A stretch of DNA of 26,229 nucleotides from a virus, in IMG/VR virus record IMGVR_UViG_3300045135_000037, positions 1 to 26,229 of that record; one strand, given 5' to 3'. Below are positions 5,927-10,720 of this stretch, piece by piece. Under the pieces are notes generated by a model. That model was not told where the DNA came from. It did not search any database and saw nothing but the letters and a program-made list of their open reading frames with translations. A program made the position numbers and the translations under genes. The first letter of the stretch is position 1. Each line of letters begins with the position of its first letter.

Positions 5927-6495
5927 TGTCAATACTTAATTGAAATATACACAAACTCCTCGCCTATCGGCTTCACTTAACTGTATCACTGTACGTATAT
6001 ACTTAAATGTTATTATAGTTAGTGTATATATAAGAGTAGTATGTAAGGACATTATAAATGTTACATTGTACGTGTATCACTTTAAGTGTCATCCTAGTTA
6101 TCTACATACGTAGTTTTACACATTTTGTGTACCCTTGTCAAGTGGGTATCTGCGTATTGTAACAAACTGTAACACAATATTACATCACAATATGTTACAA
6201 TTAGTAACACTAACAACTGTAAACCACTATATATGTAATGTGGTTAACACTTCATTTTTCCTGATCTGTGTATTTACGTGTATACATATACGCACCACCC
6301 CCGTGTGGCCCATGCACACCCGCTCATACACAGCCGCATGACGTACACATGAGGTATATGTGCCGCTGGTGAACACGCATAATGCATACACATCCACCAT
6401 GCATAAGGAAAAGTGTTTACTTTCAGTAACATATCAGAGTGTGACAACTGTTATGGAATCAGTTGCCTAGCAAAGATGTGAATGAAATCATAGAT

Positions 6496-6582
6496 TTGTG
6501 ATCACAAGGTGTGTTGCAATGCCGATGCATATTTTGTAACCATACCCCACTACAGTGTAGTGTCCATTATTTGTGATCACAA
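6496..6582. repeat. Pair of identical 12-bp palindromes TTGTGATCACAA
   Basis: TTGTGATCACAA occurs exactly at 6496-6507 and again at 6571-6582, 75 bases apart centre to centre. Both are preceded by AT. Two perfect copies of a perfect palindrome in a non-coding control region are the classic form of operators for a dimeric repressor or activator. Confidence 0.7.
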
Positions 6583-6587
6583 AAACT

Positions 6588-6601
6588 GTCCAACGTTGGA
6601 C
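6588..6601. repeat. Palindrome GTCCAACGTTGGAC, copy 1
   Basis: This perfect 14-bp palindrome lies in the control region, six bases after the second TTGTGATCACAA site. It belongs to a family with copies at 7205-7220, 8088-8101, 9184-9199 and 14188-14201. It is a likely protein-binding site. Confidence 0.75.
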
Positions 6602-6617
6602 GTTATCACTGAAGCCT

Positions 6618-6641
6618 CGCACGAGTTTTGCGCACGAGTTT
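6618..6641. repeat. Tandem 11-bp direct repeat CGCACGAGTTT
   Basis: CGCACGAGTTT occurs at 6618-6628 and 6631-6641, separated by two bases (13-bp period). It sits between the palindromes and the promoter, so it could be an iteron-like or regulator site. Confidence 0.6.
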
Positions 6642-6642
6642 C

Positions 6643-6657
6643 GTAATCTTAGATTAC
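6643..6657. repeat. 15-bp inverted repeat GTAATCT-T-AGATTAC
   Basis: Perfect 7-bp arms flank one central base, directly after the tandem repeat. The form suits an operator, and it lies about 48 bases upstream of the TTGACA box. Confidence 0.6.
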
Positions 6658-6704
6658 TGCAACCGCACGGGAAACGGCACGGGCAGAGGATCGCACAGAA
6701 GGAG

Positions 6705-6731
6705 TTGACACTACTACTTACTTACTATAAT
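6705..6731 (+). promoter_or_regulatory. Candidate early rightward promoter (TTGACA / TATAAT)
   Basis: Both hexamers are exact sigma70 consensus: TTGACA at 6705-6710 and TATAAT at 6726-6731. The spacer is 15 bases, shorter than the usual 16-18. It points at the first rightward gene (6823). The -10 box lies inside the left arm of the nested inverted repeat, so factors or structure there could control it. Confidence 0.6.
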
Positions 6732-6811
6732 AGTTACACAGATAGTTTATTATATCTCACTGTTAAGTGAGAGATATAAGTAAACTCTCTAAAGTGTAAC
6801 ATAGTAAGTAA
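6718..6811. repeat. 94-bp nested inverted repeat before the first rightward gene
   Basis: Four pairs of complementary arms are nested in order: TTACTTACTAT (6718-6728) with ATAGTAAGTAA (6801-6811); GTTACAC (6733-6739) with GTGTAAC (6794-6800); AGTTTA (6744-6749) with TAAACT (6781-6786); TATATCTC (6751-6758) with GAGATATA (6771-6778). That is about 32 paired positions around a short loop. The right arm touches the AAAGGA ribosome binding site of the gene at 6823. The structure is read directly; its role as RNA switch, operator or origin element is not known. Confidence 0.75.
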
Positions 6812-6822
6812 AGGATAGTAAG

Positions 6823-7443
6823 ATGGCTAAATCAGCAAACAAAGCAGTTAAAGTTGAAGGTACTTCAATTGATGCCCTAATCAAAGAAGGCAAAGCCTTG
6901 GGTAAGATGTGGAATGCAATTCACAATGTGAAGCAGACCACGAAAGCCAACGGCTTTGATACACGACTAGGCAAATTGCTTGTTGAGCTAAAAGCTCAGT
7001 CTAGCTTGGACAGTGGTCAAATCTCACGTCAGACACTCACAACACATGGCATTCACAACATTGATCGTCGTAGACGTTCAGAGGCTTTGTGGTTCGTTGA
7101 AAACGAAGTGGCTTGCCGAGAGTTCATGCAAGCCTCAAAGAAAGGCTTCACATCCCTCACTGCTTTGCAGAAGGCTATGCGTGATGCTGCTAAAGCAGAT
7201 AAAGTGTCCAACGTTGGACAGTCTACCAAAGGTAAAGATGGTCTAGTGTCAGACACTGGTTGGCAGGAACCTAAAGCCACACAGGCAAACGTTACTGAAC
7301 AGCGTTCAGTCAATGTGATGATCACTCGTACAAAGTTGGTTGATAACATTGTAGAACAATGCCAGTTGAATAACTTGGACTTGGAAGCAATCATAAATGA
7401 TTTGCAAATGCAACTTGCGAAGCAAGCTAAGAAGGAGGCGTAA
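6823..7443 (+). CDS. First early gene, 206-aa protein of unknown function
   Basis: The gene has an AAAGGA site and is the first behind the early promoter. The product is helical and basic at first, with GTSIDALIKEGKALGKMWNAIHNV near the start and a long Ser/Gln-rich segment. A central part reads THGIHNIDRRRRSEALWFVENEVACREFM (residues about 75-102), and the C-terminus is helical (LVDNIVEQCQLNNLDLEAIINDLQMQL). No family is recognised. The RRRRSEALW helix could bind DNA, so it is one candidate reader of the palindromes. It carries one palindrome copy in its own coding sequence. Confidence 0.8.
   Translation: MAKSANKAVKVEGTSIDALIKEGKALGKMWNAIHNVKQTTKANGFDTRLGKLLVELKAQSSLDSGQISRQTLTTHGIHNIDRRRRSEALWFVENEVACREFMQASKKGFTSLTALQKAMRDAAKADKVSNVGQSTKGKDGLVSDTGWQEPKATQANVTEQRSVNVMITRTKLVDNIVEQCQLNNLDLEAIINDLQMQLAKQAKKEA
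7201..7225. repeat. Palindrome copy 2 within a 25-bp repeat inside the 206-aa gene
   Basis: The perfect 16-bp palindrome TGTCCAACGTTGGACA is at 7205-7220. A 25-base stretch around it is repeated exactly at 9180-9204. It is read in frame and encodes the residues KVSNVGQS. Confidence 0.75.
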
Positions 7444-8120: not shown

Positions 8121-8810
8121 ATGACTTACACAGTTCATACTACACTTAAATCATCTAACCGCAAAGTGGGCAAGATACCCGTCACAACTACGAGTGCTGA
8201 CACTTGTCCTGATGCATGTCCGTTCAACAATGCCAACGAAGGTGGCTGCTATGCAAATGGTGGTCCATTGGCAATGCATTGGGCCAAGGTAACACGTGGT
8301 GAGCGTGGTGATGGTTGGACTACATTCATCGCAACTGTTTCATCTTTCAAAGATGGTCAGTTGTGGCGACACAATCAGGCAGGTGATTTGGCAGGTGATG
8401 GGCATCGTTTGGATGCTGATGCAAATGATCAGCTTGCTGATGCCAATGTTGGCAAACGTGGTTTCACTTACACACATTACCCTGTGTTGACTGACAAGCA
8501 TAATGCTCGTGTGGTCAAACGTATGAATGACAAAGGCTTTGTGGTCAATCTGTCAGCCAACAATGTCAAACATGCAGATGCATTGTATGACTTGGGCATT
8601 GCACCAGTAGCAACTGTGTTGCCAGAAACACAAACGACTAATACCACTACGCCTAAAGGCCGTAAGGTGGTCGTATGTCCTGCCACAATTCGTGATGATG
8701 TGTCATGTGCTACCTGTCAGCTATGTGCTAAACAGCGTGATGCAATCATAGGTTTTCCTGCACATGGTAGCAGCAAACGTAAAGCTAACAGCGTAGCTGA
8801 AGGAGTGTAA
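8121..8810 (+). CDS. Cysteine-rich conserved phage protein, possible metal or Fe-S binder
   Basis: This 229-aa protein starts at the ATG at 8121, which has ACGGAG upstream. The longer frame from 8040 overlaps the previous gene in an unlikely frame. The N-terminus has TCPDACPFNNANEGGCYANGGPLAMHW (C29, C33, C43). The C-terminal part has VVVCPATIRDDVSCATCQLCAKQ (four Cys). The middle, HYPVLTDKHNARVVKRMNDKGFVVNLSANN, resembles a TIM-barrel-like strand and helix run. The family is found in phages and plasmids; I recall a similar DUF7227 group but cannot check it. Function unknown. Confidence 0.75.
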   Translation: MTYTVHTTLKSSNRKVGKIPVTTTSADTCPDACPFNNANEGGCYANGGPLAMHWAKVTRGERGDGWTTFIATVSSFKDGQLWRHNQAGDLAGDGHRLDADANDQLADANVGKRGFTYTHYPVLTDKHNARVVKRMNDKGFVVNLSANNVKHADALYDLGIAPVATVLPETQTTNTTTPKGRKVVVCPATIRDDVSCATCQLCAKQRDAIIGFPAHGSSKRKANSVAEGV

Positions 8811-10484: not shown

Positions 10485-10720
10485 AAGTAATGGGTTACGA
10501 TGTAACCGTTGAAGTAGATGGTGTGGAAAGTGTCGTGCAGTTGGACGATACTTACCCATCTGTACATGATTGGCATAGTGCTACGGAGTTTGCTATGGCA
10601 CTTGCTGATCATATACATCCAGACGCTACCAACATCAGCTTTGTGGAGTGCTCTGAATTTGAACTTGAAGAATACAAATCGTATGGCTACATACACGAAG
10701 CACCTATGATGTTGCAATGA
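10481..10720 (+). CDS. Small acidic early protein, unknown
   Basis: The ATG at 10481 has AAAGGAG upstream and overlaps the previous stop (ATGA). The 79-aa acidic product starts MKVMGYDVTVEVDGVESVVQL and ends in EFELEEYKSYGYIHEAPMMLQ, with a likely alpha-beta fold. The longer frame from 10457 lacks start support. No family is recognised. Confidence 0.68.
   Translation: MKVMGYDVTVEVDGVESVVQLDDTYPSVHDWHSATEFAMALADHIHPDATNISFVECSEFELEEYKSYGYIHEAPMMLQ

Follow-up and report, generated by a model that had tools for sequence, protein, structure and literature searches.

The window analysed here, a 26,229-base virus record in IMG/VR, encodes a DNA polymerase with 99.6% identity to that of Roseobacter phage CRP-345, 82% to that of CRP-1 and 70% to that of HMO-2011. 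On the strength of these identities, the window is a piece of an HMO-2011-type phage close to CRP-345. Phages of this type have been described as forming a dominant, broadly distributed marine viral group, and the words promoter, intergenic, origin of replication and terminator are absent from the main comparative paper on them (PMC9038755). A large intergenic region (5933-6822), which holds additional palindromes, has leftward genes on one side and rightward early genes on the other, and its right end is occupied by a long hairpin. The features at and around the hairpin are as follows:

6705-6710, plus strand: -35-like TTGACA; 29 of 53 copies match it at 5 or more of 6 positions, 24-34 nt ahead of H2
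6718-6811, plus strand: the whole nested hairpin, supported by MFE, window scan, covariance model hit and compensation in 53 distinct copies
6718-6728, plus strand: left arm of outer helix H1, pairing with 6801-6811 (11/11 complementary)
6726-6731, plus strand: -10-like TATAAT, with a 15-nt spacer to TTGACA
6729-6732, plus strand: AT-rich left-side bulge between H1 and H2, overlapping the -10 box
6733-6739, plus strand: left arm of helix H2, pairing with 6794-6800 (7/7 complementary)
6740-6749, plus strand: left arm of helix H3, pairing with 6781-6790 (9/10 complementary)
6751-6778, plus strand: apical helix H4 (6751-6761 with 6766-6778, with a 2-nt bulge in the 3' strand), which contains the shared core
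6781-6790, plus strand: right arm of H3, complementary and conserved in relatives
6794-6800, plus strand: right arm of H2, complementary and conserved in relatives
6801-6811, plus strand: right arm of H1, ending at the ribosome binding site
6810-6815, plus strand: ribosome binding site AAAGGA, conserved beside the hairpin
6823-7443, plus strand: first early gene (206 aa, function unknown), of a family of the HMO-2011 subgroup

The product of the first early gene shows 95% identity to CRP-345 gp01 and 56% to its CRP-1 counterpart. It has no PHROG and no Pfam match above the Pfam cut-off, and its predicted structure, which is of low confidence (mean pLDDT 61), was not used. Positions 8121-8810 of the window encode a DUF7227 protein (phrog_2554) of a kind common in Pseudomonas phages; the first gene annotated in cyanophage P-SSP7 has a product similar to it. 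DUF7227 is an early gene common to phage types that also have the hairpin.

The initial annotation described the sequence as a four-tier nested inverted repeat of 94 bases and about 32 pairs that touches the AAAGGA site. All four arm pairs are indeed present and nest in the proposed order, the MFE structure of the 94 nt as RNA has 38 pairs, and the ribosome binding site (SD) lies flush with the outer arm, ahead of the ATG at 6823. As RNA, the hairpin folds with -35.4 kcal/mol, against a shuffle mean of -15.7 (z -7.05; 0 of 200 shuffles equalled it), and as DNA with -22.5 (z -7.9). It has the most negative z (-8.2) of the 523 windows of 100 nt that were scanned, and the covariance model described below matches it with 58.2 bits (E 1.3e-12). 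The core shared with other phages is found in H4 as TATATCTCAC-loop-GTGAGAGATATA, and the bulge between H1 and H2 measures 2-5 nt in relatives. In folding of a longer transcript, the stem gains pairing of 6712-6717 with 6815-6820, and the binding site then lies in an internal loop. The sequence ATAGTAAG (6815-6822) is a repeat present on either side of the ribosome binding site, and its second copy can also pair with the outer left arm, enclosing the site.

Some other candidates were discarded. The strong fold at 10516 lies in coding sequence and lacks the motif; an attP site is unsupported, with the integrase 6.5 kb away; the arms are interrupted by conserved bulges, which does not suit a telomere-type palindrome; and the stem has no T run after it, as a terminator would.

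A hairpin in the same place is found in CRP-345, CRP-1, HMO-2011 and about 80 IMG/VR loci. Those of the three named phages are equally stable, and that of HMO-2011 is quite different in sequence. Loci were collected with a pattern for the conserved element just upstream of the hairpin, which returned 102 IMG/VR stretches, most of the loci being metagenomic and redundant: the hairpin lies between this element and the first gene in all stretches with enough sequence except L062, which is unrelated. RNAalifold gave no structure on a plain alignment of 44 copies, in which the arms are misaligned, and the pairing was resolved by subgroup alignment and a covariance model built from 21 copies. Searches with this model found a single strong hairpin per locus, on the sense strand. 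Within the subgroup no loss of the hairpin was seen among functional relatives. It is absent at the genome ends of CRP-2, CRP-603, CRP-207, CRP-3, CRP-235, CRP-738, CRP-212 and HTVC033P, and when bacterial genomes were scanned for the upstream element, none of the 36 matches had the hairpin.

Compensatory changes in relatives, on which the initial annotation had made its proposal depend, are present in 30 of the 32 pairs as two-sided changes, which supports the idea of a long hairpin with a function. Across 53 distinct aligned copies, 97.6% of paired positions pair, compared with 75% in shuffles; sliding the partners by 1-3 columns as a control lowers pairing to 32-58%. Changed stem cells number 316 with both sides altered and 6 with one side altered, counts that do not represent independent events because the 53 copies share ancestry. 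Compensation is found in all four helices: H1 cells are 99.1% paired, with two-sided changes in 8/8 modelled pairs, and H2 is 98.4% paired. The same is seen over short distances. Where two copies have 6 or fewer differences (51 such pairs), stem changes are two-sided in 46 cases and one-sided in 0, and unpaired sites drift singly; the sole difference between the hairpins of L096 and L021 is one swapped pair. In this respect the hairpin is a remarkable example, its arms changing in matched pairs only. Template switching between inverted repeats, a process known to homogenise their arms (PMC8604942), could produce such a lack of one-sided intermediates and keep the arms alike as a mutational artefact rather than by selection. 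It leaves unexplained why the hairpin persists at one fixed place across very different sequences and phages; we regard this explanation as extremely improbable, and template switching as at best a source of changes that selection keeps.

The position of the hairpin relative to the gene is also conserved. In 49 of 50 copies the SD follows its base at a distance of 1-4 nt. The spacing between SD and ATG is conserved as well, and different first genes stand behind the same hairpin and SD in L029 (80 aa), L100 (57 aa) and L117 (29 aa). In L203, L207, L226 and L240 the SD (GGAG or GAGGAG) is inside the outer 3' arm.

Both elements of the consensus-like promoter of the initial annotation, TTGACA and TATAAT, are present, with a short 15-nt spacer. 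Promoter-like sites in the hairpin region are no more frequent than in shuffles. A simple promoter scan favours AATAGT at 18 nt over TATAAT at 15 nt. In TTGACA-bearing HMO-type loci the start is predicted to fall 31-41 nt from the -35, close to the base of H3, the inner helix, and in the window the left arm of H3 is the predicted 5' end of local-promoter transcripts, judged from the -35/-10 spacing. A CTTGACA-type -35 at the matching distance occurs in 29 of 53 copies, and the hairpin is kept in the other 24, so it does not depend on the local promoter. For the same reason a promoter switch cannot account in general for why the structure exists. Farther upstream, no conserved promoter could be named. 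In L126 (HTVC033P), the last 65 bases contain the strong promoter TTGACA-17-TATATT. Pairing is possible between its spacer and the stretch that carries the GAGG site ahead of the first gene, which amounts to a weaker version of the same logic.

It had been proposed that transcripts from the local promoter would lack the outer left arm and stay open, and that transcripts started upstream would hide the start region. Folding of 50 loci agrees with the former, with a mean unpaired probability of 0.63 for the 22 nt before the SD when transcripts start at the inner helix. The latter holds for these 22 nt, which are occluded in long transcripts (0.11), but less so for the SD itself, which shifts from 0.69 with an inner-helix start to 0.47. 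The two-promoter translation switch is, at this point, a prediction.

The apical core, TATCTCAC..GTGAGAGATA or ATCTCTCCCTTTAGGGTGAGAGAGAT, also heads early genes in other phages. Scans of viral contigs with the apical core alone gave 113 distinct contexts. In 109 of these the flanks pair with each other at 12 or more positions, so that the core sits in a long hairpin. The search pattern fixes the core, so its conservation in these sets is no evidence; the flanking stems are. The core is present in T7-like cyanopodoviruses with transaldolase and a phage RNA polymerase (L195, L214) and in phages with other terminase families (L171, L172, L182). P-SSP7 is a model T7-like Prochlorococcus phage. 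Among Prochlorococcus podoviruses, the core query matches P-SSP2 at 40/40 bases, P-SSP3 at 97% and P-SSP7 partially.

The cyanophage-type loci have a -10 box (TATAAT, TATACT or TAGAAT) about 6-9 nt before the hairpin base. The start predicted from this box, in P-SSP2 and P-SSP3 among others, falls at the hairpin base, and the whole hairpin would thus form the 5' end of the first early transcript. The outer stem of these loci likewise has two-sided changes. The first ORF lies about 150-330 nt downstream of the hairpin in P-SSP7, P-SSP2 and P-SSP3. Because cyanophage transcripts are predicted to begin at the hairpin base, with the first gene this far away, hiding the start region cannot, as far as these predicted starts indicate, be the whole function of the hairpin family.

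Two tandem copies of the hairpin stand ahead of two successive genes in L169, L191, L172 and L188. The second copy has no TTGACA in L169 and L191, and in L172 it directly follows the stop codon of gene 1. This pattern is expected of an element that acts within the transcript. L193 has tandem core hairpins too, and in most tandem loci each copy precedes a gene. L188:1-1166 (minus strand) and L260 contain the same core on much longer, GC-richer stems, down to -72 kcal/mol.

Pairing in the hairpin is almost strictly Watson-Crick. G-U (G-T) pairs make up 6 of 1653 cells and are confined to the helix base and the apical closing pair. Their share of MFE pairs is 1.8% (plus strand) or 3.0% (minus strand), compared with 10.8% in shuffled and 13.2% in coding sequence; the minus strand of the hairpin folds about equally well. 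G-U pairs are normally tolerated in RNA helices. Such strict pairing is unusual for RNA, and fits very strong selection, a role as DNA or arm homogenisation by template switching. A DNA-level element would be a cruciform or single-strand hairpin, e.g. a replication origin or a supercoiling-sensitive promoter, in the divergent intergenic region. It would account for two-sided changes with virtually no G-T or A-C intermediates, where RNA would allow G-U, for outer arms that are kept as well as the inner arms despite their absence from local-promoter transcripts, and for the location in a large region with additional palindromes between divergent gene sets. However, the SD distance is fixed at 1-4 nt whatever gene follows, a tie that an origin does not predict. 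In addition, copies occur between co-oriented genes and always in sense orientation relative to the gene, the 3'-strand bulges are conserved, and the cyanophage promoter is directly before the hairpin. We consider a DNA-level role unlikely.

We favour, at a probability of about 0.6, the reading that the early phage message carries the repeat in its 5' leader as a hairpin acting in cis, with roles in processing, 5'-end protection or start access. The value is held at this level mainly because G-U pairs are nearly absent; the fold of the minus strand and the distance between the cyanophage hairpin and the first ORF also count against this reading. In its favour are the compensation in all four helices, the fixed SD distance, kept when another gene follows, the loci with the SD inside the 3' arm, the tandem copies before successive genes, the -10 box just before the cyanophage hairpin and the several terminase families that carry the hairpin. 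The structure, its compensation, the fixed SD distance, the shared core and the tandem copies are all observed. The account that follows, which takes the element to act as RNA and names an enzyme, start sites and a direction of effect, is inferred. Transcripts initiated upstream would fold the whole stem into a double-stranded rod of more than 30 pairs that reaches the first gene's ribosome binding site. This rod and its conserved apical core are most likely recognised and processed in the host, with RNase III as the leading candidate given the parallels in T7 early RNA and the lambda N/cIII leaders, and/or shield the 5' end of the message. A cut or a transcription start within the stem would free the binding site. 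Where the CTTGACA promoter exists, local transcripts would begin at the inner helix, leaving the core as a 5'-terminal stem-loop and the start region open.

Given its location within early transcripts and before genes, its conserved core and its compensated stems, the hairpin would, by analogy, work most like the sites at which RNase III processes the early RNA of T7 and lambda. PMC5371410 summarises known cases in which this enzyme controls early leaders of phages. The sites of T7 early mRNA and lambda N/cIII are likewise long irregular hairpins in early leaders or between genes, before SDs, and start access there changes with cleavage (PMC5371410), as we propose for this hairpin; what differs here is an apical core of 20-26 nt that is conserved in sequence across unrelated phages. 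In common with RNase III sites, the hairpin has 38 pairs (at least about two helical turns), an asymmetric 3'-strand bulge and a position in an early leader or between early genes, with the SD 1-4 nt from the helix. The sequence conservation of the apical core exceeds what RNase III is known to need, which counts against assigning the site to this enzyme.

With predicted starts within a few nt of the helix base in cyanophages and in TTGACA-bearing HMO-type loci, the hairpin could instead be a plain 5'-terminal stabiliser against 5'-end-dependent decay, with no processing or translational role. A transcript start at the hairpin base, as predicted here, is shared with the ompA-type stem-loop, but the hairpin described here is much longer and has a conserved core and compensated outer arms. 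A stabiliser would need neither the HMO-type outer arms nor the conserved core sequence, nor copies between genes, and we find this explanation quite improbable.

The put sites of phage HK022 are two stem-loops, structured RNA heading early transcripts with conserved unpaired or apical bases. The hairpin would resemble them in its place at the start of early transcripts, its RNA structure and its conserved bases of this kind, and it differs in being a single long hairpin with copies before individual genes. A put-like antiterminator would bind host RNA polymerase through the sequence-conserved apical part of the leader so that terminators in the long early operon are ignored. This would suit a location at or near the early transcript start in phages that use host RNA polymerase early, as well as lower stems kept by compensation and a core kept by sequence across alphaproteobacterial and cyanobacterial phages. 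Where put has two adjacent stem-loops after the early promoter, one long hairpin is found here, and a second, small hairpin is located upstream of the -35; moreover, antitermination does not need repeated copies before single genes and does not explain why the hairpin directly abuts the SD. Antitermination of this kind is therefore a doubtful explanation.

In the leader-hairpin reading, early phage messages appear to share a widespread control element that has so far gone undescribed. The window has no match in Rfam 15, the best sub-threshold hits being at chance level. PhotoRC-II RNA (Rfam RF01717), the cyanophage psbA leader, aligns weakly to P-SSP2 at the AGGGUG-like loop of the terminal hairpin; the alignment scores 18.4 bits, no more than chance hits do, where the gathering score is 39, and membership in this family was rejected. 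We tentatively raise the possibility, which we would not rate above a minority view, that the core is a specific RNA ligand of host machinery common to alphaproteobacteria and cyanobacteria, which unrelated marine phages captured independently or passed between them and which lets them control their first transcripts without any phage protein, and hence an undescribed RNA family. Candidates for the machinery that would read it are RNA polymerase, the ribosome or a ribonuclease. A leader element that heads early genes in both HMO-2011-type phages and P-SSP7 would give marine infections a switch point in common. The element is testable in existing laboratory phage-host pairs, and a covariance model is now available for family searches.

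Further conserved elements lie upstream of the hairpin. One, upstream of the promoter at 6618-6692 of the window, reads CACGAGTTT.GCGCACGA(A/G)(C/T)TTC - variable perfect stem-loop - TGCA(GT/AC) ... GAAACG.CA.GCGCAGAGGATC. The sequence of its stem differs widely between phages with complementarity kept, and the triplets flanking the stem covary (GTT/AAC, ACT/AGT, ATT/AAT). The palindrome GTCCAACGTTGGAC occurs both upstream of the first gene (6588-6601) and within it (7207-7220). Relatives have GTCCRA....TYGGAC variants upstream that are almost always symmetric, and the palindrome looks like an operator. The perfect dyad TTTGTGATCACAA/TTGTGATCACAAA is present in two intergenic copies (6495-6507 and 6571-6583) and is kept in CRP-345, CRP-1 and others.
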